Position numbers and translations under genes: made by a program
Source: a virus
Length of the DNA: 45,347 nucleotides
Strand: one strand, 5' to 3'
IMG/VR virus record: IMGVR_UViG_3300005608_000001
Coordinates: 1 to 45,347 of that record
Shown here: positions 3,576-44,803 of the stretch, in pieces
Layout: each line of letters begins with the position of its first letter
Numbering within the stretch: the stretch's first letter is position 1
The notes under the pieces: model-generated
Told to the model about the DNA's origin: nothing
Seen by the model: only the letters and a program-made list of their open reading frames with translations
Database searches by the model: none

Positions 3576-3657
3576 TGCGGTTGAAAGGACTTGAACCTTC
3601 ACGGATTACTCCACTTGTGCCTAAAACAAGCGCGTCTACCAATTCCGCCACAACCGC
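3576..3657 (-). tRNA. tRNA-Leu (anticodon UAG), likely phage attachment site
   Basis: Read on the reverse strand this is a full class II tRNA cloverleaf. The acceptor GCGGTTG pairs with CAACCGC, the D-arm is GCG...CGC, and the anticodon stem CTTGT/ACAAG carries loop TTTAGGC (anticodon TAG). There is a long variable arm, and the T-arm GAAGG/CCTTT carries loop TTCAAGT. The 3' CCA is not encoded. A CATAAT box lies at 3682-3677, about 20 bases upstream on that strand. Prochlorococcus podoviruses such as P-SSP7 carry part of a host tRNA-Leu as a presumed attP, and this genome also encodes a tyrosine integrase. A whole functional-looking gene rather than a 3' fragment is notable. It may serve translation, integration, or both. 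Confidence 0.9.
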
Positions 3658-3679
3658 AACCTGTACATCTTATCTGATT

Positions 3680-8568: not shown

Positions 8569-9558
8569 ATGTCCAGACAAATTACAGTTAAGGACTGTGT
8601 AGATCACACAGCCCGATCACACTGGAAAAACATGCGAAGTTACAAAACTAGCATGATGTACGCAAAACTATTTATGGATTGCAGAAGTCCATCAACACCT
8701 ATTAAAAAGATGTTGAAGGGCGATTATTGGATAAAGACTCAGAACATGCTTCTTGACGATCATCCACGCTGGACACATGCGACTGTGAATAGAACAATCA
8801 CGGCGGCTCGCACAGCAATCAACAAGGCTCGCAAAGCTGGACTACATGACATGAATCTTCCTGAGATTGACAAGTTGAAGGAAAACAAATGTCGTATGGT
8901 ATGGCTTACACGTCACCAAGTTGATAATTTAGCGGCAACCGCTGAAGAAATCTTTGACATGAAAGATTTAAAGGAAGCGATTCTTGTTAGTGCCTACACA
9001 GGTATAAGACAAGATGAACTACTTAAATTAAGAGTCAAAGATCTAGACCAACACCATAAATCTTTGCATGTAGGTGGTATGCAGTATCTAGTTACAAAAG
9101 CTAATGAGATACGGCATTTACCCGTAGGCGAGATCAATAGGGTTTGGGATATATTAGTGAGTAGGACAACTCACCTAGATTCACGAGACAGAATCTTCGG
9201 AGACTGTTGGCGTAATGGTCAAGCATTGCGTAGACAATTCTATAAAGTCCGTGACTATTGTGGATTAGACGATGGTGTAGTTTGGCATACACTTCGCCAT
9301 AGTTACGGAACTTGGTTGGCAGAGACTGAATCGGTTAGTACGATTCAAGCTTTGATGGGACATGCTAATAGCACAACCACTGAGCGTTATGTAAAGGTCA
9401 ACCCAACCAGACTCAGAACAGCATTATCTTCACTGAATGACAAACAGCCAAATGAGTTTTCAGTATCAGAAGATGTGATTACCGAATTGAAAGCACAGAT
9501 CAAAAAAGAATTGATGCTGGAGCTTCTCAATAAGGACAAAACCAGCTTAACCGCTTAG
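8569..9558 (+). CDS. int: tyrosine site-specific integrase
   Basis: 329 residues with the full tyrosine recombinase set: Arg147 (YTGIRQDEL), likely Lys177, His240 and Arg243 (HTLRHSYG), His265 (LMGHANSTTT) and nucleophile Tyr274 (ERYV). The N-terminal 100 residues form the core-binding domain. It would join attP to a host site; the tRNA-Leu gene at 3576-3657 is the obvious attP candidate. All catalytic residues are intact, so it may be active. T7-like cyanophages often carry an integrase after the RNA polymerase gene, although most are known only as lytic. Confidence 0.95.
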   Translation: MSRQITVKDCVDHTARSHWKNMRSYKTSMMYAKLFMDCRSPSTPIKKMLKGDYWIKTQNMLLDDHPRWTHATVNRTITAARTAINKARKAGLHDMNLPEIDKLKENKCRMVWLTRHQVDNLAATAEEIFDMKDLKEAILVSAYTGIRQDELLKLRVKDLDQHHKSLHVGGMQYLVTKANEIRHLPVGEINRVWDILVSRTTHLDSRDRIFGDCWRNGQALRRQFYKVRDYCGLDDGVVWHTLRHSYGTWLAETESVSTIQALMGHANSTTTERYVKVNPTRLRTALSSLNDKQPNEFSVSEDVITELKAQIKKELMLELLNKDKTSLTA

Positions 9559-30237: not shown

Positions 30238-33200
30238 ATGCCAATATTAGAAAATAGGGATTTTGAAGAGTATCAAGATCCCAATAAAAAAATTACTCCA
30301 CCTCTAAATGTAGATGATGCTAACAAAGAGGAAAATAATGAGGTAGCTGCAAAAGTAAATCCTATAGATGAAGCACAAAAAGAACAAAGACCAGAAGGTT
30401 TTGTTACTAAAACAGGGCAAGCTCTTGATTATATAGTAAATGCCGATGGTTTGACAGCAGATATGACGAATGTTGCCGCTGCTGGATTAAAAGAAGCTAC
30501 AAAAAATATACCTATCGTAAATAATGTAACTCAGGCTATTGATAATTTTGTTCTTGGTTCTAAAGAAATGAAGGACTTAGAACAAAAAATGGCTGAAAAG
30601 GACGCAGAAAGACGTAGAAAAGGTGAGGATAACTTTTTAGATAAGACAGCAGTTGTACTAGAAGGTATAGCGTCTGGTATGGAAGGTGGTATAGCTTTAC
30701 CATTTACCTTAGCTGGCAGACTTACAAACCAAGCAACACCTTGGGCTGATCCTCCAGCTACTCTAAAAGATAGTCCACTCGGAGAAACTGTATTTGAAAT
30801 AGCACAAGTCGTCACGCCAACATTACTGTTTTCTGCTGTTGGCGGTGGAAATCCAGTAACTGTTGGAACGTCAGGGTTATTAATTGAAAGTGGTATCGAA
30901 ACAATAACGCAAGACGGTGCTGACGATTTAATAGCTGGTAGATATTTAGCCACAAGAATTGGTAAAATAGCTGACTCTCTTGGTTACGATGGACAACAAC
31001 TAGCAATAGATATGATCGAAGGTAAAAACTTCAATGGTCAAGCGTTAGTAGCAACAGTCGGATTTTTACAAAACTTAGGTATAAACATTTCAGTAAATAA
31101 ATTTATTGATCTTTTCAGAAAGTCAAAAAAAATACAGCAAAATAATTTACTGCAAGGTGCTGATGCAAATAAACAAGTATTAGAAGGTAGTAGTGGTGGT
31201 ACACCTCCTCCAATACAAAAACAACTACCAACGTCTGCTATTACAACTCAACAAGTCATTGATGTTGATGTTATTGATATTAAAGAGATACCACCAACTG
31301 TAAAAAACACAGCTAAAATTTTAAAAACAGATGCTATAGATGTTTACAAAAAATTAGAAGATGTAAACGAAGTACCATACAGTTACAAAAAAGAACCACA
31401 CGATGTGATGGATATTGATAATTCTGTCAATGTCTCAAAGCCAAGTGAAGGTAATGTACATACATCAAAAGAAGCATTTCATACAGAAATGGGCAGAGGG
31501 TACAAAATAGATACTCCCGCTGAAAGAGGTCTGAACGAAATCGGCACTGATGGAATGACAAGAGCTGATCGTAACTTTTTTACAAACTGGGGATCTTTAA
31601 CTGACGAAGTTGGTGTACAAAGAGCATTACAAGAAATAACAAGTAATTTAAGACAACTTAGAAATTTTCCAGCAGATCTAGATATAGCACTAAAAAGAGC
31701 TAATCATTTTTGGTCAAAAAATGCACAGCTTTTAGGTGAAGATATTTCTGCTTTTGCTAGAGAATTTTATAAAGAAGGTGTTGTACCTTTAGATCCTAGA
31801 AAAAGTCTAAATGATTTTGACGGTGTAGATTGGCAAAGAATGTTGAGAGAAAATGTAAAAGTATCTCCAGACTTTTTTGCAGCCGCTGGTTTAATGGCTG
31901 AGGAATTAGGAGTTAGATTTGCCAAGCAAGCAAGAGTAGTTAGAAATTTAGATAATGCAAAAATCGACTTTACTCAAGCTATGGAAACTATGGTTCAGTT
32001 AGTTGAGAAGGGTGATTTGTTATTAATACCATTAAGAAGAGCAAAAAGACAATGGGCTATAGAAGGTATAACTCAACAAAAAAATGTCTTTGAAAAACTA
32101 AGAGAAGGCTATAAGCAACCACTTGGGGCTAAAGATTTACCTTCAGACAAAATAACTCCACGCGATTTAACATTAATAAAAAAAAATGATACTGATGCTG
32201 GTAAAACTATTAGAGAGTTATGGGAAAGTGCCAAGGCTGGTAATACTAAAGATTTAGAAACTCTTAAAGAATATCTAGATTATGTTGCTGGCGCACCTCC
32301 AGATGAAGTTTTTGGTATGACAAAGAACTTAGCAGATGCTTTAAAAAATACACTCAATGTAAATGGAGACACAGCAAGAACTCTTTACTATGCAAAACTT
32401 TTAGCAACAATAAACCCACAAACTGCGGCTGGAGCAACAAACGTCGCTCGTCTTATATCTGAACCTTTAGGAAATATTGCTTCCCCTATTTTTAGAGGTG
32501 GTGGTATTAAAGATGTGATGTATGGTTTAGGTCAGTTAGTTGGTACACAAGGTGCTTTAAATGATGCTCTATTTGCATTTAAAAGAGCTGCTAAAAACAA
32601 TCAATCTATTAACGCAAGTTCTAGAGTATATGAATTATCTAAAACATGGAAAAGAAAGTCACTAGAATTAGAGGCAGCTAAAACTATGTTGCTAGATAAA
32701 ATATCCAGAGAAGGTGGTAATACAACTGAGATAGCTAAAGTCCATATTAATTATTGGATACAAATGGCTGCTTACAATCCATTTACAAACTTTGCTAAAA
32801 GATTTTTGATAGCACAAGATGATGCCGCTAATGTTGTCGTTGGACATCAAGAAGCAACAGGTAGAGCATTTGTAAAAGCTTACGAAGATGGTGTATTCGA
32901 TCTAAAAATAAATCCCAAAAATTTATTTAAAAAAGGTGAACAAGCTATACAGCAAGGTAAGCAATTAGAACAATATGTTAGACAATCCATGGGTAATATT
33001 TTCCAAGATGGAATTACTCACGGAAGATTAATAGATGAAGGTGTAATACAAAGAGCTAAAAACTTGACCATGCAAGAAAATATTCCTGTAGGTAAATATG
33101 CAACACCTGTAGATAACTTTTTTAAAGGTCTTGAACAACAAAGTCAGAACGCATTTATAGCAACATACTTTATGCCTTTTGCTAGATTATCTTGGAACTT

Positions 33201-34425
33201 CTTAGATACATTAGGTAGAAGTGTATATGCTCTTGATCCAACAGGATTGATAGAAAAAAGTGTACCTAGATATAAAGCAATCATAAGTGGAGAAATGGGA
33301 GAAGTCGCAGAAATGCAACTTAAATCTCAAGTAGCTTTTACTCGTATGTTTGTAATGAGTCAAGCTGGATTAGCTTTAACAGGAAATTTAACTGGTAATT
33401 ATCCTCCAGATGGCATGCCAAAAAATTCATGGATTATACCAACACCTTGGACATCTACTGGATATACAGCTATACCACATGACCGTATTCAACCATTTAG
33501 TTCTCTCGCTACTATTACTGCTGATTTAGTGACACTTACTAGAGATCAAGCTATTGGTAAAAAAAAATTTCAACAAGCAGTATCGTTATTTGTAGCGACT
33601 GTAGGTGTTGCAATTTTAGACCAAACATTTTTAAGGGGTCTACAAAACCAAGTTGAATATTTAGATCTTAATGGTTATGTAACTAAAGATGGAAGAAGCT
33701 TAAAAATATCAAGAGTTGGATCTGATTTAGCTGCAAACATACCTCTTAGAGGATTTAATCCCTTTTTCTGGGCTGGTTTTACACGTCAATTATTTGATCT
33801 TGTACAGCCATACCAAACTATGAACTCTGATCCAAATAATACTGGAAGAGATTTCATAGCAAGACTTAGAGGTAGGATAATGATGGGTGCTGGTAATCCT
33901 TTAAAGTACGATAGATATACTGGAAAAGTTTTAAAAAAATCTGGAAGTCAAGGTAAAAATTATTTTACTGCTGTGGTAAACAATTTATTTTCTACCTTTG
34001 GATATGCGGGAAAACTTGTAGAAGCAGATCCTAATAATTTTGTTAAAAAACAAATGTACAATGTAGGATTTGACTTTAACAAAGCAGAATTAGCAGAATA
34101 TAAAGGACTTGAATTAACAAATGCAGAGCAATCTTCATTTAATAAATACATGCACAGTGAGGGTAAATTAGAAGATAGATTAACTTTTCTATTTACACAA
34201 AATAAAAAATACAAAAAATTATTAGCGCAATACAACAGAGAGTTAGCAAATACTTCTTCAAATATGCCTAATACACAACTTGCTGTAATAGAACTACAAC
34301 TTCATGCAATGATTGAAGCTGTTCATAAAGAAGCTAAAGATTTAGCTTTGCCTTTTGTTATAAGAGATCATCCAGAGTTAGAAATAAAATATCAAAATTG
34401 GCAGAAGCTACAAATTAGACGATAA
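30238..34425 (+). CDS. internal virion protein D (T7 gp16-like)
   Basis: 1395 residues (T7 gp16 is 1318). The N-terminal 150 residues lack the ESGG/lytic-transglycosylase motifs of T7 gp16; instead there is a Gly/Ala-rich amphipathic segment (VVTPTLLFSAVGGGNPV). The long helical C-terminal part includes YFMPFARLSWNFLDTLG and a hydrophobic IPLRGFNPFFWAGFTRQL, typical of gp16-type ejection proteins. It would extend through the inner membrane during DNA delivery. How it passes the peptidoglycan without a recognisable transglycosylase is open. Confidence 0.9.
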   Translation: MPILENRDFEEYQDPNKKITPPLNVDDANKEENNEVAAKVNPIDEAQKEQRPEGFVTKTGQALDYIVNADGLTADMTNVAAAGLKEATKNIPIVNNVTQAIDNFVLGSKEMKDLEQKMAEKDAERRRKGEDNFLDKTAVVLEGIASGMEGGIALPFTLAGRLTNQATPWADPPATLKDSPLGETVFEIAQVVTPTLLFSAVGGGNPVTVGTSGLLIESGIETITQDGADDLIAGRYLATRIGKIADSLGYDGQQLAIDMIEGKNFNGQALVATVGFLQNLGINISVNKFIDLFRKSKKIQQNNLLQGADANKQVLEGSSGGTPPPIQKQLPTSAITTQQVIDVDVIDIKEIPPTVKNTAKILKTDAIDVYKKLEDVNEVPYSYKKEPHDVMDIDNSVNVSKPSEGNVHTSKEAFHTEMGRGYKIDTPAERGLNEIGTDGMTRADRNFFTNWGSLTDEVGVQRALQEITSNLRQLRNFPADLDIALKRANHFWSKNAQLLGEDISAFAREFYKEGVVPLDPRKSLNDFDGVDWQRMLRENVKVSPDFFAAAGLMAEELGVRFAKQARVVRNLDNAKIDFTQAMETMVQLVEKGDLLLIPLRRAKRQWAIEGITQQKNVFEKLREGYKQPLGAKDLPSDKITPRDLTLIKKNDTDAGKTIRELWESAKAGNTKDLETLKEYLDYVAGAPPDEVFGMTKNLADALKNTLNVNGDTARTLYYAKLLATINPQTAAGATNVARLISEPLGNIASPIFRGGGIKDVMYGLGQLVGTQGALNDALFAFKRAAKNNQSINASSRVYELSKTWKRKSLELEAAKTMLLDKISREGGNTTEIAKVHINYWIQMAAYNPFTNFAKRFLIAQDDAANVVVGHQEATGRAFVKAYEDGVFDLKINPKNLFKKGEQAIQQGKQLEQYVRQSMGNIFQDGITHGRLIDEGVIQRAKNLTMQENIPVGKYATPVDNFFKGLEQQSQNAFIATYFMPFARLSWNFLDTLGRSVYALDPTGLIEKSVPRYKAIISGEMGEVAEMQLKSQVAFTRMFVMSQAGLALTGNLTGNYPPDGMPKNSWIIPTPWTSTGYTAIPHDRIQPFSSLATITADLVTLTRDQAIGKKKFQQAVSLFVATVGVAILDQTFLRGLQNQVEYLDLNGYVTKDGRSLKISRVGSDLAANIPLRGFNPFFWAGFTRQLFDLVQPYQTMNSDPNNTGRDFIARLRGRIMMGAGNPLKYDRYTGKVLKKSGSQGKNYFTAVVNNLFSTFGYAGKLVEADPNNFVKKQMYNVGFDFNKAELAEYKGLELTNAEQSSFNKYMHSEGKLEDRLTFLFTQNKKYKKLLAQYNRELANTSSNMPNTQLAVIELQLHAMIEAVHKEAKDLALPFVIRDHPELEIKYQNWQKLQIRR

Positions 34426-34443
34426 AAAAACTAGAAAAAATTA

Positions 34444-37400
34444 ATGGCACAGACTACCGAAACCTATACGGGGGATGGCAGCACCAAATTATATTCAATA
34501 CCTTTTCCTTATATAGAACAAACAGACGTAAAAGCAAAGATTGATGGTCAACTTACCACAGCTTTTACGTTTGCAAACGCAACTCAACTTGAGTTCTCAA
34601 CCGCTCCCGTTCGTGATGCAAAGATAATAATATTTAGACAAACAGATGATTCAGCAGTTAAAAAAGAATTTAGTGCTGGATCAGCCTTAAAAGCAGAGGA
34701 TCTTAATGCTAATGCAAAGCAAGCTTTGTTTATTAACCAAGAAGGAACTAACCAAGCAGCTAGTACGCTAGGTGCATTATTTCAAGGTGATGTCGAGTTT
34801 GGTTTTGGTAATGTTATCAAGTTCGAGGGTGCTTCAGATGATGCACATGAGACAACTTTAACAGTAACAGATCCAACAGCAGATAGAACTCTAGCACTAC
34901 CAAACGTCAGTGGTACACTGGTTTCTACTGGAGATACAGGTACTATCACATCGACTATGATCCTTAATGAAACCATCGAAAGTGGTGACATTAAAAATGG
35001 AACAATAGTCAATGCTGACATTTCTGGTACAGCAAACATACTTAACAGTAAAATTGCTGATGGTTTACTTAAAAGTGGTATAACTGTCAACTCATCTAAC
35101 ATAGTTAATGGGTCAATCGTTAATGAGGACATAAATGCTAGTGCAAATATACAAGGATCAAAGCTATTAAATGATAGTGTTACCTTAGATAAGCTAGGAT
35201 CTGGAGCTTTACCGACTGATATAACTGTAGCTTCGGCTAATATTGTTAATGGAACTATTGTAGATGCTGATATAAATAGCTCTGCAAATATTGATGGTGA
35301 TAAATTAAAGAATGATTCTGTTTCTCTTGGGAAACTAGAAGGTGGTGCGCTACCTACAGATATAAGTGTGGCGAGTGCCAACATTGTTAATGGAACTATT
35401 GTTGATGCTGATATTAGTGGAACAGCTAATATTAATGGGTCTAAGATTCTTAATGACAGCTTAACTCTAGACAAATTAGGGTCTGGAGCATTACCAACTG
35501 ACATAACAGTGGCTACTACTAACCTAGTAGACGGCACTATTGTTGATGCTGATATAAATGCGGCTGCGGATATAGAAGGATCTAAGCTAAAAAATGATTC
35601 TGTCCCTCTAACTAAGTTTGGAGCTGGAGCATTACCAACAGATATAACTGTAAACAGTTCTAATATCGTAGATAGAAGTATAGTTGATGGAGATATATCC
35701 CAAGGAACACTTGATAATAGATATTTTACTGAGGTTGAACTAAATGGTGGTCAGTTAAATAACCTGTATTACACAGAAACTGAGCTAAATAATGGTCAAT
35801 TAAATAATTTATACTACACAGAAACTGAATTAAACAACGGACAACTTAATAACCTCTACTTTACTGAGACTGAGTTATTAGGTGGCGCACTAGACGGTAG
35901 ATATTATACAGAGACAGAAGCTGAAGCTAAGTTTCTTAGACAAGACAGTTCAGAAACTATTTCTAGTGGTGTTGCATGGTCAAGTGTAGATTCAAAAGTA
36001 GCTACAACGGCTGCTATAGACGCAAGGATAATTGATTTAGTAGATGATGTTGGTGGTTTTGTACCTATTGCAAATGAAACAAGCTTCCCTACTGCAAATC
36101 CTGATATTAATAACCCCGCTACTGGCGGCACTATTGTTTCTGTTAAGGCTGTATCTACTACACTTACACCAAGCAGCGGCTCAATCACTATTGCAAATGG
36201 TAGAGGAACTGGTAATCCTGTCATTATTACAGGCGTAACTGGAGTTATACCTCAAGGATTTGGCATGTTGGTTGAAACTACAACCACAGACCATACCTAT
36301 GCGTTCCATAGATTGCAAGCTAAGGCAACTGAAATAAATACCGTAGCTACAAACATAGGATCAGTCGTTACAGCAGCCACAAACGTAGCTGATATTAACA
36401 ACTTTGCTGATAAATATTTGATTAGTGCAACAGCTCCTACACAAAGAGCTGACGGAACATCGTTACAGCATGGGGATCTTTGGTATGACAGCGCAAATAC
36501 CGTAATGATGGTATTTGATGGGTCTGCTGGGGACGGTTTTTCTGCTATTACACCAAACCAAGCAACCATAACAAACATAAATACGGTTGCTGGTCACGTT
36601 ACTTTCCAAGAAGATTTAGGAAGTATTACGGATGCTATTAATACTGGATCTGGTAATAACTCAATAAATACAGTTGGAGCAAGTATAGCGGATGTAAATA
36701 CAGTTGCTAATGACCTTAATGAGCCAGTATCTGAGATAGAAACAGTTGCAAACAGTATTGTAAATGTCAATAGTGTTGGTAACTCTATATCAAATGTCAA
36801 TGCAGTAGCTGGAAATGCGACAAATATTAATGCTGTCAAGAACAATGAGACAAACATTAATGCTGTCAATGCGAATAAGACAAACATTGACGCTGTAGCT
36901 GGCAACAATGCAAATATTACCGCTGTTAAAAACAACGAAACTAATATTAATGCAGTCAAAAACAACGCTTCAAACATAAATACCGTTGCTGGCATAAATG
37001 CAAACGTAACGACTGTGGCTGGAATCTCAGCGAACGTGACTGCTGTAGCTGGAAATGCGACTAATATTAATGCCGTAAAAAATAATGCTACAAATATTAA
37101 CGCCGTAAACGCTAATAAAACAAACATTGACACGGTTGCTGCCAATAATACTAACGTCACGACTGTTGCTGGCAAAGCTGCTGAGATAGGAAGGCTTGGA
37201 ACTGCTGATGCTGTAGCTGATATGAATACCTTGGGTACTTCAGCAATAGTATCTGACCTGAATGATTGTGCTGATATTAAAGCAAACATATCAACAGTCG
37301 CTGGAATCAGTGCAAATGTGACTACGGTTGCTGGTATTAGCTCAGATGTCACAGCAGTTGCGGGAAATAATACAAACATCACAGCGGTTAAAAACAATGC

Positions 37401-37791
37401 GACCAACATTAACGCCGTACAAGCGAACTCTTCTAATATTAATGCTGCTGTTAGCAACGCTTCAAATATTAATGCTGTTGTTTCCAACGCTACAAACATT
37501 AATACAGTCGCTGCTTCCATATCAGATGTCAACAGATATGCAGCGGAATATTTAATTCAATCTAACCAACCATCAAGTCCCAGTGCTGGAGATTTATGGT
37601 ACAACACCACAGCAAATACTCTTAACTACTACACAGGTGGTGCATGGGTAGCTATTGCGGCTGGTATTGCGGGAGTAATTAACGACCCAGCTCCAAATTT
37701 AGGAGCAAATTTAGATTGCAACGACAAAAACTTAGTTGAAGTAGGAACAATCAGTGGCGACAACTTACAAATTGACTTCGGTACACTATAA
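34444..37791 (+). CDS. tail fibre with T7 gp17 N-terminus and long repeat shaft
   Basis: 1115 residues. The first 130 or so (TTETYTGDGSTKLYSIPFPYIE; EFSAGSALKAEDLNANAKQA) match the T7 gp17 N-terminal domain that anchors the fibre to the nozzle. Then come three repeat blocks: about six copies of SANIVNGTIVDADI plus KLKNDSVSLGKLEGGALPTDI (aa 180-420), five copies of ELNNGQLNNLYYTET (aa 425-480) and a long N-A/I-T-N-I-N-A-V-type series (aa 750-1030). The C-terminal piece has QPSSPSAGDLWYNTTANTL. Fibre repeats like these form the rigid shaft; the tip sits in the next gene. It would recognise the host surface. Confidence 0.92.
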   Translation: MAQTTETYTGDGSTKLYSIPFPYIEQTDVKAKIDGQLTTAFTFANATQLEFSTAPVRDAKIIIFRQTDDSAVKKEFSAGSALKAEDLNANAKQALFINQEGTNQAASTLGALFQGDVEFGFGNVIKFEGASDDAHETTLTVTDPTADRTLALPNVSGTLVSTGDTGTITSTMILNETIESGDIKNGTIVNADISGTANILNSKIADGLLKSGITVNSSNIVNGSIVNEDINASANIQGSKLLNDSVTLDKLGSGALPTDITVASANIVNGTIVDADINSSANIDGDKLKNDSVSLGKLEGGALPTDISVASANIVNGTIVDADISGTANINGSKILNDSLTLDKLGSGALPTDITVATTNLVDGTIVDADINAAADIEGSKLKNDSVPLTKFGAGALPTDITVNSSNIVDRSIVDGDISQGTLDNRYFTEVELNGGQLNNLYYTETELNNGQLNNLYYTETELNNGQLNNLYFTETELLGGALDGRYYTETEAEAKFLRQDSSETISSGVAWSSVDSKVATTAAIDARIIDLVDDVGGFVPIANETSFPTANPDINNPATGGTIVSVKAVSTTLTPSSGSITIANGRGTGNPVIITGVTGVIPQGFGMLVETTTTDHTYAFHRLQAKATEINTVATNIGSVVTAATNVADINNFADKYLISATAPTQRADGTSLQHGDLWYDSANTVMMVFDGSAGDGFSAITPNQATITNINTVAGHVTFQEDLGSITDAINTGSGNNSINTVGASIADVNTVANDLNEPVSEIETVANSIVNVNSVGNSISNVNAVAGNATNINAVKNNETNINAVNANKTNIDAVAGNNANITAVKNNETNINAVKNNASNINTVAGINANVTTVAGISANVTAVAGNATNINAVKNNATNINAVNANKTNIDTVAANNTNVTTVAGKAAEIGRLGTADAVADMNTLGTSAIVSDLNDCADIKANISTVAGISANVTTVAGISSDVTAVAGNNTNITAVKNNATNINAVQANSSNINAAVSNASNINAVVSNATNINTVAASISDVNRYAAEYLIQSNQPSSPSAGDLWYNTTANTLNYYTGGAWVAIAAGIAGVINDPAPNLGANLDCNDKNLVEVGTISGDNLQIDFGTL
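34981..35700 (+). repeat. tail-fibre shaft repeats, block 1
   Basis: About six tandem, diverged copies of roughly 120 bases encoding the SANIVNGTIVDADI-type unit, sharing long stretches such as ggaactattgttgatgctga. They produce a spurious reverse-strand ORF. Such repeats allow length variation by recombination. Confidence 0.75.
36690..37530 (+). repeat. tail-fibre shaft repeats, block 2 (N-x-T/N-I-N/T-A-V type)
   Basis: Around twenty short units of 24 to 33 bases encoding NATNINAVKNN, GISANVTTVA and similar, with high sequence identity between neighbours. It is the most repetitive DNA in the window and a likely site of slippage or assembly error. It also generates a long antisense ORF that is not a gene. 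Confidence 0.75.
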
Positions 37792-39333
37792 ATGGCTAAA
37801 TTATTAAAATTAAGGCGTGGTACTACAGCGCAACACGCATCATTTACAGGTGCTGAAGGCGAAGTAACTATAGATACCACGAAAGATACTGCTGTCATAC
37901 ATGACGGTAGCACAGCAGGGGGAACACCTCTTGCAAAACAAGATATGAGTAATGTGCCAGCAGGGACAATCCTTGGTACACAACTCGAAAACTCTGGAGT
38001 AACAGGCGGTCAGTATGGATCTAGCTCTGCTATTCCTATTATTACAGTTGATAATCAAGGCTTAGTTACTTCAGCCTCGACAACTGCGGTTGACAGCACC
38101 AAGATACAGAACGGCACAACAGAAGTTGCTACTGCTAACGCTGGCGATATAACAATGAAAAGGTCTGGAACTACCAGACTTATCGTTGAAAATGATGGGA
38201 TAGACATAACAGGAGATATTGATCTTTCTGGAAATATAGAACTAAATGATAACAAATACCTTTATGTTGGCGATAGTCAAGATGGTAGACTTTATCACGA
38301 TCAAAGCAACACATATTTAGAAGATAACGGTACTGGTGAACTAAGACTTGCATCAAATAATGGTGCTGGTGTTCGTATTACTAAAGGTTCATCTGAAACA
38401 TTAGCAAACTTTACTAATGATGGAGCTTGTGAATTTTTCCATGATAATTCGCAAAAATTAAACACGAATGGAAGTGGAATCAACGTAACAGGAAACATCG
38501 CAGTTTCAGGATTAGTTGACGGTGTTGATATAGCTGGATTTAAGCAAGAATTTGACAACGCATTTCCAGCTGGGACTAGAATGATATTCCAACAGACTTC
38601 AGCTCCTACTGGATGGACAAAAGTTACATCTGGCGTAAACAATCACGCTCTTAGAGTTGTATCTGGTACTGCTGGATCTGGCGGTAACGCAGCGTTTACG
38701 TCTGTTTTTGCAACCAGAGGCATTAATGCGACTGCTGGTAACACAACTGCTGGCGGTAACGTATCTTCAAGTGCTGGAAATACAACGGCTGGCGGTAATG
38801 TGAGTGTGTCAGTGGCTAACGCTGCACAAGGCGGTAATGTTTCTATCGGTAATACAGCCCAAGGCGGTAACGTATCTATTGGTAATACATCTACAGGCGG
38901 TAACGTAAACAGTCATACATTGTCTGTTAACCAAATACCAGCACACAGCCACAGCGTTACTTTTAACTTCGGTTCATCAAGAGCTAGAAACCAATATAAT
39001 GGTTTATTTGGTGTTAACACTGGTAATGGTAGAGACGGTGGACTTGGAAGTTTTGGCACTAACAACACTGGTGGAAACGGTGGTCACTCACACGGATTTA
39101 GTGGAAGTTCACACAACCACAATGCGTCATTTAGTGGATCTAATCACAACCACAACGCTAGTTTTTCTGGAAGCAACCACAACCACAATGCTAACGCTAG
39201 TTTTTCTGGTTCTGCTCATAACCATAACGTAAGCTCAAGCTTCTCTGGTTCGGCACACAACCACAGCATTTCTGTAGGTAATCTTGATATGAATGTTGAG
39301 TACTTAGACGTAATCATTGCATCAAAAGATTAA
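37792..39333 (+). CDS. second tail fibre / collar receptor-binding protein
   Basis: 513 residues. The N-terminus AKLLKLRRGTTAQHASFTGA and the EVTIDTTKDTAVIHDGS segment are the attachment module seen in many cyanophage fibres (major-tropism-determinant N-terminal type). The middle has PAGTRMIFQQTSAPTGWTK, typical of collar domains. The end has six or more Gly/Ser units each with an H-N-H or H-S-H triplet, then NVEYLDVIIASKD. HxH triplets bind metal in T4 gp12/gp37-type tips, so this is probably the receptor tip. A series of GGN repeats (aa about 300-375) precedes it. Confidence 0.85.
   Translation: MAKLLKLRRGTTAQHASFTGAEGEVTIDTTKDTAVIHDGSTAGGTPLAKQDMSNVPAGTILGTQLENSGVTGGQYGSSSAIPIITVDNQGLVTSASTTAVDSTKIQNGTTEVATANAGDITMKRSGTTRLIVENDGIDITGDIDLSGNIELNDNKYLYVGDSQDGRLYHDQSNTYLEDNGTGELRLASNNGAGVRITKGSSETLANFTNDGACEFFHDNSQKLNTNGSGINVTGNIAVSGLVDGVDIAGFKQEFDNAFPAGTRMIFQQTSAPTGWTKVTSGVNNHALRVVSGTAGSGGNAAFTSVFATRGINATAGNTTAGGNVSSSAGNTTAGGNVSVSVANAAQGGNVSIGNTAQGGNVSIGNTSTGGNVNSHTLSVNQIPAHSHSVTFNFGSSRARNQYNGLFGVNTGNGRDGGLGSFGTNNTGGNGGHSHGFSGSSHNHNASFSGSNHNHNASFSGSNHNHNANASFSGSAHNHNVSSSFSGSAHNHSISVGNLDMNVEYLDVIIASKD
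39086..39270 (+). repeat. His-Asn-His repeat block in the fibre tip
   Basis: Five to six units of about 30 bases encoding FSGSxHNHNA-type sequence (GFSGSSHNHNAS, FSGSNHNHNAS, and so on). Nearly identical at the DNA level (ttttctggaagcaaccacaa). Consistent with a metal-coordinating trimeric spike; copy number may vary between strains. Confidence 0.8.
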
Positions 39334-39875
39334 TGAGAATACCATGGTATATACATGGGAACTGGAAGCTAGAATCCACCCAACTAACTAATTTAGAAAG
39401 TAATATTTTAAAAGTTGGTAACTACAGCAATAATCTTTGTTCAACTTATAATACTGATTGTAAAGAGCTTGCATTTTTAAAAAATTTCTACAAAGAACGA
39501 GTAGATGAAATAGCTAAAGATCAAGCTTTTTATCACAACTCATCATACGCTTATGAGTTTTGGTTACAGCTTTACAATAAAAACGCCACACATGATGTAC
39601 ATACACATTTTGGATTAGGAAAAAATAATATTATATCTTTTGTACATTTTTTAAAAACAACAGATACGCAATGTTTACAATTTACTGATACCAAAGAAAT
39701 AGAAATACCACAACAAGAAGAAGGTGATTTTATTATTTTTCCAAGTTATGTATCTCATCAAGTAGTGTCTCACACTAGCAACTACAACCGCATTGTTGTA
39801 GCTGGCAATATAAAACTTATACAACATGAAAATCAAAGCAGGGACGTTCTGCCCGTTAATCCAAGGGGATTGTAA
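39333..39875 (+). CDS. 2-oxoglutarate/Fe(II) oxygenase-like protein (1 of 5)
   Basis: 180 residues. Likely metal ligands are in HDVHTHFG (His90, His92) and His142 in FIIFPSYVSHQV; Arg153 would bind 2-oxoglutarate. This is the double-stranded beta-helix order of the family, with the FPS...H segment typical of phage members. Its ATG overlaps the fibre stop, so it is co-translated with the fibre gene. Substrate unknown; it could hydroxylate phage structural or host proteins. Assigned from motifs only. Confidence 0.7.
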   Translation: MRIPWYIHGNWKLESTQLTNLESNILKVGNYSNNLCSTYNTDCKELAFLKNFYKERVDEIAKDQAFYHNSSYAYEFWLQLYNKNATHDVHTHFGLGKNNIISFVHFLKTTDTQCLQFTDTKEIEIPQQEEGDFIIFPSYVSHQVVSHTSNYNRIVVAGNIKLIQHENQSRDVLPVNPRGL

Positions 39876-40104
39876 AAAACTTGAATGTGTATGGTTTACA
39901 CAAATAGCGGGGACTCATCCACAGACAGGAGAATCATTTGACGAGTGGGGTTGTGCAGTAGCATGGATGCCCCTTTTATCTATAGAAAATACTAAAAGAT
40001 TAAACGAAGTCGGTGGTGCAATCGAATCGTTTAGAAATGCAACTGTAGAAACTATTTCTCCTGTAGTACCTGTAAAAGAATTTAAACCTCTTCCAATAAA
40101 ATGA
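39826..40104 (+). CDS. Cys-rich small protein
   Basis: 92 residues with four cysteines at 9, 16, 21 and 43 (FCPLIQGDC...ECVW...GCAVAW), which could bind zinc or an iron-sulfur cluster. The sequence MKIKAGTFCPL...DEWGCAVAW recurs as a short cyanophage protein of unknown function. It overlaps the oxygenase-like gene before it by 50 bases and the next gene by 4 (ATGA). Confidence 0.6.
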   Translation: MKIKAGTFCPLIQGDCKKLECVWFTQIAGTHPQTGESFDEWGCAVAWMPLLSIENTKRLNEVGGAIESFRNATVETISPVVPVKEFKPLPIK

Positions 40105-40526
40105 AAATAGACATTATTAAGCCTGATGGAATAGTCAGCAAAGATGGTGTAGGTTTGTCTGGATTATCTCTATCAAATACAATTTTTGATGATGTTTGGG
40201 CTATCCACTGGGATAGTTCTACATCAAAAGGATATGTAGAAAAATCAGATTTATCAATAGAAGATATTACAGACTTTACACCTTATGAGTCAGCAGTAAC
40301 TGAGTACGATGCTTCGTATGTTGCAAATACCACAGCAAGTAATGAAGAAATAGTTAGATCAACAAGAGATAATTTGCTAACAGCATCTGATTGGACACAA
40401 CTATCGGATTCACCATTAAGCTCTACTAAAAAAACAGAGTGGGCTACATATAGACAAGCTCTTAGAGATTTACCAGCAAATACTTCAGATTTTGCAAATC
40501 CTACATACCCAACTGAACCTACCTAA
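40101..40526 (+). CDS. tail-fibre assembly chaperone-like protein
   Basis: 141 residues; the C-terminal half (RDNLLTASDWTQLSDSPLSS, EWATYRQALRDLPANTSDF) is the pattern of the phage tail assembly chaperone family that follows fibre genes. The N-terminal half is beta-rich and divergent. Its place after two fibre genes supports a role in folding or attaching them. Confidence 0.75.
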   Translation: MKIDIIKPDGIVSKDGVGLSGLSLSNTIFDDVWAIHWDSSTSKGYVEKSDLSIEDITDFTPYESAVTEYDASYVANTTASNEEIVRSTRDNLLTASDWTQLSDSPLSSTKKTEWATYRQALRDLPANTSDFANPTYPTEPT

Positions 40527-41125
40527 TGTTTGAAATAAACAATAAGAAAGTAGAAAAATATGAACACTTTACTGTAATTAGAGATTTTTATAAAAAGCCA
40601 GATGAGGTAGTCGAATTTATACATAGATACGAACCACACTGGCATAAAAACCCACATGGATATTTTTCACAAGGTTATGACTTTGATGATATGCGACATA
40701 TTATTTATACTTTTCAAATAAAACCTGTATGGGATTTTCTTAGTCAAGTTACTAAACAACGTCCGTGTCAAGATGAACCAGACAAAGAATATTCTATAAA
40801 CACTAATTACACTTATTTTCGTCAAATATATAAGAAAAAACATTTCTACCCGCATCGAGATTATGGTTATACAGCTTTAATCTATTTAGATAAAGAAGTA
40901 GCAAACGGTACAAATATATATCAAAATATCTCATGGGATGAAACCAAAGACGAACATAGAGATCATTATTGCAATGAAGATGAAGTAAAAGTAATTGCAC
41001 ATACGCCGTCTGAATACAACAAATTAGTTATTTGGAACGGTCTACAATTACATGGTCTTTGTCAAGATGAAAAATATATAGGTAAGTGGAGACTTAATCA
41101 AGTATTTCCTTTTGAAAATGAGTAA
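40526..41125 (+). CDS. 2-oxoglutarate/Fe(II) oxygenase-like protein (2 of 5)
   Basis: 199 residues. The facial triad is visible as His110-x-Asp112 (FYPHRDYGYTALIYLD) and His176 (WNGLQLHGL), with Arg189 (KWRLNQV) for the co-substrate. The N-terminus has a helix with DFYKKPDEVVEFIH. Starts at the chaperone stop (TAATG). A bona fide family fold is likely; substrate unknown. Confidence 0.8.
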   Translation: MFEINNKKVEKYEHFTVIRDFYKKPDEVVEFIHRYEPHWHKNPHGYFSQGYDFDDMRHIIYTFQIKPVWDFLSQVTKQRPCQDEPDKEYSINTNYTYFRQIYKKKHFYPHRDYGYTALIYLDKEVANGTNIYQNISWDETKDEHRDHYCNEDEVKVIAHTPSEYNKLVIWNGLQLHGLCQDEKYIGKWRLNQVFPFENE

Positions 41126-41681
41126 TTATCATTTAGAAGGAATTTTTACACATTTTTTACATCATTTAAAAGTAGATATTTCACAAGAACTTCTAAGCTT
41201 TTGTTATGAACAAAAAAAATTAGATCCTGTAGGAGTTAAACTTTCTAATTGTGGTGGGTGGCAATCTAAGGAATTTATAGAAGATAAATCAATAGCAAAT
41301 AATCTTATTGAAAATATTTTATCTAGGACAAGTGAAGTATTTACACAACAACTTTTATTAGAAAATTTTTGGATAAATATTAATAGTCCTGACACATACA
41401 ACAGTATGCACGTTCATCCGAATAGTAATATTTCTGGAGTTATATGGATTAAAATTCCAAAAGATTCTGGTAATTTATATTTTCCTAACCCTGACAATTT
41501 TCAAAAGTATAAAGAAATAAATTTTTATAAATCTTTTTTAAATCAAGGCGAGGGTTATGAACTAGAACCACAAAAAGGTAATGTTGTTTTGTTTCCAAGT
41601 TGTTTACAGCATGAGGTAACAAAAAATTTATCTAACGATGAAAGAGTGTCAATATCTTTTAATAGTAATTTTGCATTATAA
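41118..41681 (+). CDS. 2-oxoglutarate/Fe(II) oxygenase-like protein (3 of 5)
   Basis: 187 residues from the ATG at 41118; an in-frame TTG at 41112 is less likely. Signature MHVHPNSNISGVIWI (His98 and His100 from this start), LFPSCLQHEV (His165) and Arg176 (ERVSISFN) matches the family I know as TIGR02466, a predicted oxygenase of phages and marine bacteria. It overlaps the previous oxygenase-like gene by 8 bases. Confidence 0.8.
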   Translation: MSNYHLEGIFTHFLHHLKVDISQELLSFCYEQKKLDPVGVKLSNCGGWQSKEFIEDKSIANNLIENILSRTSEVFTQQLLLENFWININSPDTYNSMHVHPNSNISGVIWIKIPKDSGNLYFPNPDNFQKYKEINFYKSFLNQGEGYELEPQKGNVVLFPSCLQHEVTKNLSNDERVSISFNSNFAL

Positions 41682-42068
41682 ATGGAGATACCAAAATTAG
41701 ATATACCAGATCATCCACCTATTAAAACTGTTGAGATACCTTTACCCACAGGAGAAATACCTTCATACACACCATTGATAGTACCTCCGAGTGATCTCCG
41801 ACCTCCAGATGGAGTGCAAGGCGAAAATCACGATACAGCAAACGACACAGGAATAAGAACGATTGACATACCTATGCTTAACTTTAAACTTCCTGTGCCA
41901 GAAAACGCCATTTTAATAACAGCGGGTACTACTGCTGTTGTTTCTGTAGCCGCAACACTTACAGCAACTGCCATTTTTAAATGGTGTGTTACTGCAATGA
42001 AACCAGTTATAAAGAAATTATTAAAATGGATCACGAGGACAAAAGAGAGTGGCTCAAAGACGCAATAA
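41682..42068 (+). CDS. hypothetical membrane protein
   Basis: 128 residues. A Pro-rich N-terminal half (PKLDIPDHPPIKTVEIPLPTG) is followed by one transmembrane helix (aa about 75-97, NAILITAGTTAVVSVAATLTA) and a basic C-terminus. Proteins with this layout recur in the fibre-to-terminase region of cyanophages. Might act in lysis or virion function; not identified. Confidence 0.6.
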   Translation: MEIPKLDIPDHPPIKTVEIPLPTGEIPSYTPLIVPPSDLRPPDGVQGENHDTANDTGIRTIDIPMLNFKLPVPENAILITAGTTAVVSVAATLTATAIFKWCVTAMKPVIKKLLKWITRTKESGSKTQ

Positions 42069-42250
42069 CAGTGTTTATTCTTCTTTGGTCGATGGTTCTC
42101 TTATCGTGTAACTACATAAAAATACACGACAAAAAAATTTTAGACTTTGATAGCACATTTATAGCTTCTATCTTTTCATCTTCAGCTTATGCAATGGGTG
42201 TAAAAGGTATTGGAGGTAGAAATGGCAACGGAAACGCAAAAAAACCATGA
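42026..42250 (+). CDS. small membrane protein, holin-like candidate
   Basis: 74 residues from the ATG at 42026, with a hydrophobic helix (ITVFILLWSMVLLSCNYI) and a second weakly hydrophobic segment (FIASIFSSSAYAMGV), and a Gly/Asn/Lys tail. Size, charge and membrane helices fit a holin or an antiholin, but the same is true of many phage membrane peptides. It overlaps both neighbours. Confidence 0.5.
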   Translation: MDHEDKREWLKDAITVFILLWSMVLLSCNYIKIHDKKILDFDSTFIASIFSSSAYAMGVKGIGGRNGNGNAKKP

Positions 42251-42609
42251 AAAAATTACTAATATTTATAGCTTTACTGTCACCAAGTGCAGTTTTAGCT
42301 AACACCGTAACCCCACAATTTACCCACGGATCTCTAAATTCAACGACTACAACTTCTACAACTTTGGTTGAGACAGAGCAAGTTCAAGTGTTTGGAGCTG
42401 AAGTAAAGACTTGGAGCGGTACAAATATTACAGCGTCAGCTAGTGCTGGTATAGCTGGTGGTGATTCCGTATTTACAGTTACAGACAGTACTTTACCGTG
42501 GACTTTAGAAACAACAAACAGATCGGCTGGTTTGATAGAGCAAAGAGATTATACTCGCAATTTCACAATAAACTCTACTACCAACTCGCTTTCTGTATTC
42601 TCGCAATAA
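42247..42609 (+). CDS. secreted or periplasmic hypothetical protein
   Basis: 120 residues with a clear signal peptide (MKKLLIFIALLSPSAVLA, cleavage after Ala18) and a Thr/Ser-rich beta-type mature part (NTVTPQFTHGSLNSTTTTST). No catalytic motif. It could be part of the lysis module or an outer-membrane factor. The last 112 bases overlap the next frame. Confidence 0.65.
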   Translation: MKKLLIFIALLSPSAVLANTVTPQFTHGSLNSTTTTSTTLVETEQVQVFGAEVKTWSGTNITASASAGIAGGDSVFTVTDSTLPWTLETTNRSAGLIEQRDYTRNFTINSTTNSLSVFSQ

Positions 42610-43109
42610 GCCCAGTTTATGCTGAAGGAGATACTGTTAATAAATCGAATCCAGTAGCGGCAGCCACTGGAAATGTTACTAATCAAGCTGTGCAATTTCA
42701 AAATAATGGCGCAGCTTCTACACAACACTATGGAGGTGGTGTTTCGTGTAATGGAAGTACTTTAACTTTTAGTCCTTTTTATATGGGCAACGATACAAAA
42801 CCACAGACACTTGATGGATATAACATCAATCAAAACTGGGGTTTTCAAATAAATTTTAGTATCCCTTTATCAAAAAAAAGTGTAGATCAATGCTTGGCTA
42901 TAGCACAACGTCAAGAAGAAAAAATGAAACTAGACTTTGAGCTTGTTCGTGCTTTGAAATGTACAGAAATTATGCAAAAAGGTTTTACCTTCAGACCAAA
43001 ATCAAGAGTGGCTCACATGTGCAGTGATGTCGTTCCAATACAATCATTATTACCAAAAGAAAATGTTAGCAATCCTAAAACCAATAGTTTTAACTTTTTT
43101 AAAAAGTGA
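42498..43109 (+). CDS. secreted hypothetical protein, start uncertain
   Basis: 203 residues from a GTG at 42498, but the first 35 lie over the previous gene. The conserved-looking part begins at a probable signal sequence (YYQLAFCILAISPVYA) followed by EGDTVNKSNPVAAATGNVTN and GGGVSCNGSTLTFSPFY, a family I recognise from many cyanophages, function unknown. No ATG/GTG/TTG lies between the GTG and the signal sequence, so a rare start codon or another mechanism is possible. Confidence 0.6.
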   Translation: MDFRNNKQIGWFDRAKRLYSQFHNKLYYQLAFCILAISPVYAEGDTVNKSNPVAAATGNVTNQAVQFQNNGAASTQHYGGGVSCNGSTLTFSPFYMGNDTKPQTLDGYNINQNWGFQINFSIPLSKKSVDQCLAIAQRQEEKMKLDFELVRALKCTEIMQKGFTFRPKSRVAHMCSDVVPIQSLLPKENVSNPKTNSFNFFKK

Positions 43110-43221
43110 AAAGTTTAAATATTTTATATGTGATATTTTAGAAAAACTTGTTGCAGAATCGTCAAATAAATTGGACGACCAAGCACTAGCTATCGTCAAG
43201 AAAGGTTTAGAAATAGAATAG
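43063..43221 (+). CDS. small hypothetical protein (cyanophage type)
   Basis: 52 residues from the ATG at 43063 (MLAILKPIVLTFLKSEKFKY...), with a hydrophobic N-terminal helix and a charged C-terminus. This pattern recurs in cyanophages next to secreted proteins, unknown function. It overlaps the preceding gene by 47 bases and ends one base before the next ATG. Peripheral membrane association is plausible. Confidence 0.55.
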   Translation: MLAILKPIVLTFLKSEKFKYFICDILEKLVAESSNKLDDQALAIVKKGLEIE

Positions 43222-43827
43222 ATGAGTGATAGCACCGTATTAACAGACCCATTTATATGGGTATATAACGATGTTGTACCCGAAGAAAAATGTAAAGAAA
43301 TCATAGATAAATTTGAATCTGATGATAGTCCTAACAAACAAAAAGGTCGTACTTTTGGAGGTGTAGACACCAATGTTAAAAACAGTACAGATTTACATAT
43401 TTCTTCAGAATCACAATGGAAAGATATAGATGTTTATTTTAAAGACTTAGTAGGTTTTTTAATAAATAAATATAATCAACATATACAAAATTCTTGGTCA
43501 TTTAAATCATTTACAACAGGTGAAATAAGACAGTTTGAACCACCACTTGCAACAAATGTGCATGACATAGGTTATCAAATACAAAAAACAGAGGTTGGTG
43601 ATGGTTATGTTTGGCATCACGATTTTGAAAGTGGTCGTGTACTTACTTATATTCTTTATCTAAATACTGTTGACGAAGGTTGGACACAGTTTTACAACGG
43701 CGATCAAGTATCTCCTAAAACTGGTAGGTGTGTAATATTTCCAGCAACTTGGACATATTATCATCAAGGCTACCCTCCTAAACAAACAAAGTATATTATG
43801 ACAGGATGGATATACAGTGAAGATTGA
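43222..43827 (+). CDS. 2-oxoglutarate/Fe(II) oxygenase, prolyl-4-hydroxylase-like (4 of 5)
   Basis: 201 residues. VWHHDFESGRVLTYILYLN carries His-x-Asp (His130, Asp132), and ATWTYYHQGYPP with TKYIMTGWIY gives the distal His and the co-substrate Lys/Arg region. DPFIWVYNDVVPEEKCKEII is the usual N-terminus of phage P4H-like proteins. This is the clearest member of the five. Target may be prolyl residues in phage or host proteins. Confidence 0.85.
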   Translation: MSDSTVLTDPFIWVYNDVVPEEKCKEIIDKFESDDSPNKQKGRTFGGVDTNVKNSTDLHISSESQWKDIDVYFKDLVGFLINKYNQHIQNSWSFKSFTTGEIRQFEPPLATNVHDIGYQIQKTEVGDGYVWHHDFESGRVLTYILYLNTVDEGWTQFYNGDQVSPKTGRCVIFPATWTYYHQGYPPKQTKYIMTGWIYSED

Positions 43828-44419
43828 ACATTTATTTAGCTCTCCTTTATATACTGAAAAGTTAGAAAAACACGAAGAATTAAAAAGTAAGTTTGTACCT
43901 TTACTTTATGAAGATATAGCTGAAAACAAAGAAAAGAACAAACACGATGAGTGGTGGTCTTGTAATAGTTATCAAACATATTTATGGGGTTATGGACAAG
44001 AAGAATTACAAGAACTTATGTTTAAACATGTAGATAACTACATGAATGAATTAGGTTATACAGCAATAACATACAAGATTACAAGTAGCTGGTTTAATAT
44101 GTATGGTGCTAATCAATATCAAGAAGAGCATTTTCATTTACCAGAACTTTTATCTGGTTTATACGTTATGCGGTTTGACCCTGATGTACATACAGGACTT
44201 GTTTTTACTAACAAGTTTCCAGAGTTAGCAGTTATACATGAAATGTATGGATTAAAACCTAGCAACTTTGGTAATGCTTATGGTAATAACGAATTAAACC
44301 TAAAAGAAGGTAATGTATATATCTTTCCATCTAATCTAAAACATCTAGTACCGCCACAACCAGCAAAGCTAGACAAAGATAACTACAGAATCACATTTAC
44401 ATTTAACGTCGGAATCTGA
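43817..44419 (+). CDS. 2-oxoglutarate/Fe(II) oxygenase-like protein (5 of 5), GTG start
   Basis: 200 residues, start GTG at 43817 inside the previous gene's last codons. SSPLYTEKLEKHEEL is the usual start of the same family as copy 3. Metal-site segment is EEHFHLPELLSGLYV (His-x-His) and the distal part IFPSNLKHLVPP (His), then YRITFTFN (Arg). Copies 3 and 5 look like relatives within one family. Substrate unknown. Confidence 0.8.
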   Translation: MKIEHLFSSPLYTEKLEKHEELKSKFVPLLYEDIAENKEKNKHDEWWSCNSYQTYLWGYGQEELQELMFKHVDNYMNELGYTAITYKITSSWFNMYGANQYQEEHFHLPELLSGLYVMRFDPDVHTGLVFTNKFPELAVIHEMYGLKPSNFGNAYGNNELNLKEGNVYIFPSNLKHLVPPQPAKLDKDNYRITFTFNVGI

Positions 44420-44433
44420 AGGTACAAACACCC

Positions 44434-44580
44434 ATGGACAATTTTTCAAGCCCCTTACAGGCGATCCTGAGAGGACTTTTTTTGGCAATTTTAATAAATT
44501 TCGTTATTTTATTGCCTTTGCTACCACTTTACCACAATCTTCAATTACTAGAAGCAATTAATAAAGCTAATGGCAAATAG
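44434..44580 (+). CDS. one-TM membrane protein, holin candidate (T7 gp17.5 position)
   Basis: 48 residues, MDNFSSPLQAILRGLFLAIL..., with one strong transmembrane helix (LFLAILINFVILLPLLPLY) and a short tail ending NKANGK. It lies immediately before terS, where T7 encodes its holin (gene 17.5, before 18). The stop overlaps the terS ATG region. T7 gp17.5 is 67 residues. Position and topology are the only evidence. Confidence 0.55.
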   Translation: MDNFSSPLQAILRGLFLAILINFVILLPLLPLYHNLQLLEAINKANGK

Positions 44581-44803
44581 AGCAAAAGAAGGAGATTTTG
44601 AGAACTTACATAATCTTCTTACACAAGAATTAATCAATCGTATCAAATCAGGTGAAGCTTCAACAGCAGATCTGAAAGCAGCTTGTGATTGGCTAAAGGC
44701 AAATGACGTAACAGGTGTTGCTTCTGAATCAAGTCCTTTAGCTGGTTTAGCTGGTCTTATACCAGAACTTGATTTTGACGATGTTAAAAAACACATGAAA
44801 TGA
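44570..44803 (+). CDS. terS: terminase small subunit (T7 gp18-like)
   Basis: 77 residues (T7 gp18 is 89). Helical N-terminus DFENLHNLLTQELINRIKSGEASTADLKAACDWLKANDVTG, a conserved order for podovirus small terminases, and an acidic C-terminus (ELDFDDVKKHMK). It would recognise concatemer DNA and regulate TerL. Separated from terL by about 2 kb of small genes instead of the one or two seen in T7. Confidence 0.85.
   Translation: MANRAKEGDFENLHNLLTQELINRIKSGEASTADLKAACDWLKANDVTGVASESSPLAGLAGLIPELDFDDVKKHMK

Follow-up and report, generated by a model that had tools for sequence, protein, structure and literature searches.

The virus record IMGVR_UViG_3300005608_000001 of IMG/VR, analysed here at its full length of 45,347 bp and called the window, carries five predicted 2-oxoglutarate (2OG)- and Fe(II)-dependent oxygenase genes, oxA to oxE, packed behind its tail fibre genes (Table 1). 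In related phages these genes are gained and lost at fixed slots beside the fibre and its assembly chaperone, their presence goes with the type of fibre, and fibre-adjacent oxygenase runs recur in T4-like cyanophages. We give roughly even odds (about 0.5) to their being swappable modification cassettes for the fibre or receptor-binding proteins. The window has an exact terminal repeat of 70 bp and is therefore probably a complete circular assembly. Its gene content is T7-like (single-subunit RNA polymerase, integrase, DNA polymerase, portal, capsid and tail tube genes) and its capsid protein shares 75.6% identity with that of Prochlorococcus cyanophage SS120-1 and about 64% with those of Syn5 and S-CBP42; the phage is therefore a T7-like cyanopodovirus, a phage of marine cyanobacteria. 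A megablast search of the oxygenase region against phage records returned zero matches.

Five predicted oxygenases

The original prediction, made from the window's letters before this analysis, had proposed five 2OG-Fe(II) oxygenase-like genes of at least three subtypes at this locus. The five open reading frames (ORFs) are present, their family matches lie far beyond chance, and they comprise three divergent proteins of the PF13759/phrog_81 type, one of prolyl 4-hydroxylase (P4H) type and one of phrog_1644 type. oxA, oxC and oxE match phrog_81 (3e-26, 2e-35 and 4e-29) and PF13759, 2OG-FeII_Oxy_5 (1e-7, 3e-24 and 2e-9), their PF13759 scores of 32.6, 85.9 and 38.4 bits all lying above the curated cut-off of 27; for TIGR02466, with a curated cut-off of 62.5 bits, oxC scores above it (97.8) and oxE (43.5) and oxA (23.3) below. 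oxD matches PF13640 (6e-14; 53.2 bits against a cut-off of 27) and phrog_61 (5e-34), and oxB matches phrog_1644 (8e-25), a family labelled 'minor coat protein' in PHROGs; its score for PF20043/DUF6445 (18.4 bits) is below the curated cut-off of 24.

Each protein has an intact metal triad, and by family and motif together all five are predicted to be 2OG-Fe(II) oxygenases. The residues are H90xH92-H142-R153 in oxA, H110xD112-H176-R189 in oxB, H98xH100-H165-R176 in oxC, H132xD134-H181-K190 in oxD and H105xH107-H176-R191 in oxE. The arginine that had been read in all five is present in four; oxD has a lysine in place of this 2OG-binding residue, which is the P4H pattern. Among relatives the catalytic residues of all five are invariant or almost so: the HxH, distal His and Arg do not vary across 21 aligned PF13759 members, and in the relatives of oxD H132, D134 and H181 are invariant and K190 nearly so. 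The nearest solved relative of oxD is the P4H of B. anthracis (3itq; profile match with E 3e-12), and judged by its sequence oxD is P4H-like.

The two modelled proteins, oxB and oxC, both appear to adopt the double-stranded beta-helix that had been anticipated, with weaker support for oxB. The best PDB matches of the oxC model (predicted local distance difference test, pLDDT, 86) were 2rg4 (template modelling score, TM, 0.70) and 3bvc, and a bacterial P4H was also matched. The AlphaFold model of oxB (pLDDT 72) matched human OGFOD1 best, followed by PHD2 and P4H enzymes, at moderate confidence; a sequence search of solved structures with oxB gave nothing useful. The top structural matches are mostly protein hydroxylases (P4H, PHD2, OGFOD1, NO66), but these folds are common across the superfamily.

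Purifying selection acts on the oxygenase copies of related phages, with ratios of nonsynonymous to synonymous substitution rates (dN/dS) of 0.16-0.26 for oxB, the window copy included, and mostly 0.02-0.35 for the others, some close oxD pairs reaching 0.7. In a tree that also includes homologues from T4-like cyanophages no two of oxA, oxC and oxE are sisters, and the oxA clade is sister to T4-like cyanophage proteins. Local duplication was therefore rejected as the origin of the three phrog_81 proteins, the set having been assembled from separate sources; the diversified set first proposed holds only if it is taken to mean genes that were acquired independently and swapped.

Slots beside the fibre and the chaperone

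The proposed coupling to the fibre and the chaperone through overlapping stops and starts was recovered: TAATG is common to the fib2 stop and the oxA start, and likewise to the chaperone and oxB. In addition, oxB and oxC overlap by 8 nt and oxD and oxE by 11 nt, and oxD directly abuts the preceding stop. In sister contigs, meaning those found by searching with the oxygenases, the order is fixed: fib1, fib2, slot S1, the gene of a 92-aa protein with four cysteines (4-Cys protein), the chaperone, slot S2, four core genes, slot S3 and the terminase small subunit. An empty S1 measures 0-16 bp, an S1 holding one oxygenase about 490-640 bp and one holding two about 1,155-1,175 bp; the corresponding lengths of S2 are -31 to 0 bp, about 525-600 bp and 1,156 bp. 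Neither S1 nor S2 of the sisters contains a non-oxygenase ORF of at least 80 aa. S3 is looser, with oxygenases in some relatives and other genes in some, and one enzyme type can occupy different slots in different phages, as oxD does in S1 or S3. Unrelated contexts were not found in the sister phages; the same families return in the same slots beside the fibre and the chaperone. In one contig (L132:4361-4897) S3 is filled by a cupin-like protein with the motif PPHTHPNVDSYE, not by an oxygenase.

The contig L004 has a terminase 99% identical to that of the window, and its blastn alignment with the window stops at 43220 and restarts at 44413 with zero gap on the L004 side; the oxD-oxE pair is therefore present or absent without a scar. 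S3 is also empty without a scar in L007, and in L006 it holds a single, different oxygenase at the same insertion point. The fibre of L004 is a different, Gly-rich one, and a different small gene replaces the 4-Cys protein, the chaperone, oxB and oxC; zero oxygenases were found in the sequenced part of this contig, which starts inside the fibre region.

Oxygenases and the type of tail fibre

The second fibre of the window, fib2, has a conserved N-terminus and an Asn/His-rich C-terminus with 7 HxH motifs. We drew 80 loci by the neutral neighbour ORF 42498, to avoid selecting them by their oxygenases; the fibre-side test was restricted to loci whose fibre side spans 2.4 kb or more, and the association tests ignore phylogeny and near-duplicate contigs. 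In this anchor-based sample a fibre-side oxygenase was present at 4/4 loci with an HxH-rich fibre and at 6/39 of the others (Fisher p 0.0017), and none of the six phages with a short-adhesin array had an oxygenase. S3 held an oxygenase in 14 of 71 evaluable slots, and filled fibre-side slots co-occur with filled S3 above expectation (p 0.02-0.04). Over all loci, those with the 4-Cys gene and enough sequence have at least one oxygenase, plus an HxH-rich fibre wherever the contig includes the fibre, and the 4-Cys protein is found in every relative with an HxH-rich fibre and enough context; the apparent exceptions L174 and L108 (fibre missing) are contig truncations. A split by fibre type that added the Gly-rich tips (p 1e-5) was dropped as a main argument, the grouping having been chosen post hoc.

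In the cyanopodovirus contigs L125, L143, L147, L187 and L173 the locus of the second fibre is taken up by an array of 2-6 adhesin-like genes, which are short (about 180-220 aa) and in many cases end in MEVAA. The ORFs of about 190 aa in the first four of these contigs were considered as unrecognised oxygenases and rejected, being adhesin-like and ending in MEVAA or similar.

Comparable arrangements in other phages

Podoviruses were expected to have mostly no such gene or one, and this agrees with the isolates: by three family profiles SS120-1, Syn5, S-CBP42, S-TIP28 and P60 have zero oxygenases, and the T7-like isolate S-TIP37 has at least one. In S-TIP37 (Synechococcus phage, NC_048026), the P4H-type oxygenase gp43 lies directly behind the fibre with overlapping frames and upstream of terS, and the fibre gp41 has the same N-terminus as fib2; however, gp43 is just 34% identical to oxD, one oxygenase was found against five in the window, and the chaperone gene and the fibre tip differ.

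Among T4-like cyanophages, the order of tail fibre, fibre-assembly genes, one or two Trp halogenases and an oxygenase run is found in Syn9 (gp41-gp54), S-RIM44 (gp157-gp165), P-TIM40 (gp046-gp054) and Sf-FP1 (93-100); the records with halogenase plus oxygenase runs behind fibre-assembly genes are NC_008296.2 (Syn9, 32965-43144), NC_047734.1, NC_028663.1 and PV340854.1. Like the window, these clusters have a mixed oxygenase run behind fibre or fibre-assembly genes, phrog_1644 and phrog_81 types included; unlike the window, they belong to an unrelated phage type, are led by halogenases, have longer runs and are without conserved slots around a chaperone and a 4-Cys protein.

Two contigs, L107 (3932-16310) and L106, carry fibres followed by a halogenase, an uninterrupted row of about ten oxygenase-like genes and two further halogenases. 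The oxygenase-like genes, of PF13759, PF13640, JmjC_2 and DUF6445 types and some without a Pfam match, lie directly behind Gly/His-rich fibre-assembly genes, and the copies tested have dN/dS of about 0.02-0.06. The first impression of a separate small phage was dropped on the fibre and halogenase matches, and the similarity suggests a T4-like cyanophage fragment. A Trp halogenase query matched only these two contigs and nothing in the window. The T4-like runs suggest that the cyanophage halogenase may modify fibres and not serve antibiotic synthesis.

Eight Fe(II)-dependent oxygenase genes have been recorded among fibre, C1q and lectin-like genes in the metaviromic islands of marine phages (Mizuno et al., 2014; PMC3909814), there as a table entry, 'host recognition', only, with no analysis, slot structure, fibre-type association or mechanism. 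The families, the single fibre-adjacent oxygenase of S-TIP37 and Fe(II)-oxygenases in host-recognition islands are thus already known; new within the searched literature are five such genes in a T7-like phage, their swapping at fixed slots around the chaperone and their association with fibre type.

Proposed fibre modification and its alternatives

Because the enzymes track the fibre locus, action on the fibre is the most economical reading. The five enzymes, predicted to be active with 2OG, Fe(II) and O2, would be carried as interchangeable single-gene cassettes of a host-recognition module and made late, together with the fibre and the chaperone. They would hydroxylate residues of fibre or receptor-binding proteins while these fold or assemble, thereby adjusting the chemistry of the tip, its metal binding or its receptor specificity; each fibre-tip type would be paired with its own enzyme set, which would account for gain, loss and swapping along with the fibre locus. 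The substrate we infer is a protein, namely the fibre, with Asn or His as the most plausible residues, and a benefit to the phage is presumed likewise. The tip of fib2 (243 residues) has 2 Pro, 2 Lys, 38 Asn and 16 His, so bulk hydroxylation of its Pro and Lys is unlikely, and Asn/His hydroxylation would fit better than the collagen type. With the P4Hs of B. anthracis (3itq) and P. putida (4iw3) and with PHD2/EGLN1, oxD shares HxD-H-K and a profile match and oxC a similar fold; in contrast, identity to oxD and oxC is remote, and the fib2 tip is almost without proline. The module for protein modification of the original prediction thus stands as far as its binding to the fibre locus in sisters and the T4-like runs behind fibres are concerned; its claim of a substrate is unsupported, and nothing in the analysis points to the capsid or a photosynthetic protein.

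Several observations weigh against action on the fibre. The tip offers few prolines to the P4H-like oxD, and T4-like cyanophages hold many further oxygenases distant from fibres, so that adjacency to the fibre, though a strong pattern, has exceptions. L177, L182 and L156 have oxygenases without an HxH fibre, just four HxH-fibre loci are in the anchor-based sample, and S3 tracks the fibre-side slots weakly (p 0.02-0.04). Physical linkage alone could make S1 and S2 track the fibre, the phylogeny being uncorrected.

It is unlikely that the enzymes act instead on host proteins or the host surface, hydroxylating EF-Tu, ribosomal proteins, porins or lipopolysaccharide-linked factors for takeover or a superinfection block. 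A bacterial P4H solved with EF-Tu (4iw3) is a close structural neighbour of oxC, and the ribosomal oxygenases NO66 and ycfD are among the weaker structural matches of oxB, but the genes are part of the late structural cluster and change along with the fibre slots, and even the closest characterised relatives are distant (9-25% identity).

Cyanophage 2OG oxygenases are usually credited to host metabolism or DNA repair. They are very common 'auxiliary metabolic' genes, found in 76/153 marine cyanophage genomes in one review (PMC10452541); T4-like cyanophages have 1-5 each, up to 24 in S-SCSM1, and according to the same report their viral function has had no specific investigation (PMC9602691). 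A metabolic role was put forward for T4-like cyanophages by Sullivan et al. (2010; PMC3037559): the enzymes would act on small molecules or drain 2OG, altering nitrogen signalling (NtcA/PII) or yielding succinate, and the fibre location would be only an insertion-tolerant hot spot. We doubt this for the window, even though the stretch from fibre to terminase is variable in general (this analysis; PMC3909814) and S3 of some relatives contains non-oxygenase genes. A neutral hot spot does not predict S1 and S2 filled by oxygenases alone, five unrelated enzymes are unnecessary for a bulk 2OG drain, and oxD is closer to protein hydroxylases than to metabolite oxygenases. Enrichment of NtcA-type sites (GTAN8TAC), considered as support for the nitrogen model, was rejected, the window genome having 13 against 12.9 expected.

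Chemistry on nucleic acids, lipids or glycans (AlkB-like repair, base hydroxylation, fatty-acid or sugar oxidation) is very unlikely: DNA repair was proposed for cyanophage 2OG oxygenases in the part of PMC3037559 that cites Weigele 2007, and PHROGs labels related families 'DNA endonuclease V', but zero AlkB families are among the Pfam matches of the five, and the 'endonuclease V' relatives examined have the HxD-H-R oxygenase motif, so the label looks wrong. Least probable are insertion-prone passengers without a common function, kept through drift and local recombination, since the patchy distribution (the S3 counts above) and the absence of a clade of any two phrog_81 proteins are set against purifying selection, the exclusive occupation of S1 and S2 by oxygenases and the same arrangement in T4-like phages.

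Returning to fibre modification, its fullest form would be a combinatorial finishing of the fibre. The 4-Cys protein has four invariant cysteines, C-x6-C-x4-C-x21-C, in an alignment of 10, zero family matches in profile searches, and may be a metal- or Fe-S-binding partner of the fibre. HxH fibres are known from diverse marine phages and HxH motifs are proposed iron sites (PMC11705849); fib2 resembles the fibres of T4 (gp37) and Alteromonas phage R22Y in its repeated HxH motifs, but no link with oxygenases is reported there (PMC11705849) and iron binding by fib2 is only putative. Conceivably, though on balance we would not expect it, an HxH, possibly iron-loaded, fibre, the 4-Cys protein of metal or Fe-S type, the chaperone and exchangeable oxygenases hydroxylating tip Asn/His would work together, and marine phages would vary their receptor binding by exchange of both modifying enzymes and fibre sequence. 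If the slots beside the fibre are a sign of function, many cyanophage 2OG oxygenases belong to host recognition instead of metabolism or repair, and a phage would have two ways to alter its receptor-binding proteins, sequence change and post-translational modification. Being small, the T7-like system lends itself to direct testing, and T7-like cyanophages are open to genetic editing (PMC8776855).

Neighbouring genes and further observations

Table 1. Features between the tail fibres and the terminase small subunit in the window.
Feature	Position	Strand	Evidence
fib1, long tail fibre protein, 1115 aa	34444..37791	+	phrog_21412, phrog_32829, phrog_6256 tail fibre
fib2, second fibre, 513 aa	37792..39333	+	phrog_9648, phrog_8745 tail; composition; HxH count
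oxA, 2OG-Fe(II) oxygenase (PF13759/phrog_81), predicted, slot S1	39333..39875	+	profile matches, motif
92-aa 4-Cys protein	39826..40104	+	alignment of 10; no family match
Tail fibre assembly chaperone	40101..40526	+	PF16778 Phage_tail_APC, 4.5e-19
oxB, 2OG-Fe(II) oxygenase of phrog_1644 type, predicted, slot S2	40526..41125	+	profile, HxD-H-R, AlphaFold model, dN/dS about 0.18
oxC, 2OG-Fe(II) oxygenase (PF13759/phrog_81, TIGR02466), predicted, slot S2	41118..41681	+	profiles, model
Conserved core block, membrane/secreted; ORFs 41682, 41981, 42247, 42498, 43024	41682..43221	+	conservation in relatives
oxD, P4H-like 2OG oxygenase (PF13640/phrog_61; HxD-H-K), predicted, slot S3	43222..43827	+	profiles, motif
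oxE, 2OG-Fe(II) oxygenase (PF13759/phrog_81), predicted, slot S3	43817..44419	+	profiles
S3 insertion	43222..44412	.	blastn breakpoints, junction sequences
Terminase small subunit, right-hand anchor of S3	44570..44803	+	phrog_891

The small membrane or secreted proteins, at first counted with the module, form the conserved core block; this is kept in relatives both with and without oxygenases and therefore lies outside the oxygenase module. Within it, ORFs 42247 and 42498 (window 42247-43109) share 112 nt and are both secreted-looking and highly conserved, and in L006, L007 and L027 the 42498 frame is open through most of 42247; the two may form a nested pair of lysis or envelope genes. A promoter and terminator scan was uninformative, promoter-like sites not being in excess over shuffles.

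Members of phrog_274, phrog_1644 and phrog_3531, labelled 'DNA endonuclease V', 'minor coat protein' and 'ferrochelatase' in PHROGs, have HxD-H-R (for example in S-RIM50, S-CAM9 and Syn9). From this motif the three labels are probably wrong, and cyanophage oxygenases would therefore be undercounted.

Elsewhere in the window, a tRNA-Leu-like sequence (3575-3658, minus strand) and a tyrosine integrase gene (8569-9558) suggest a possible attachment site.

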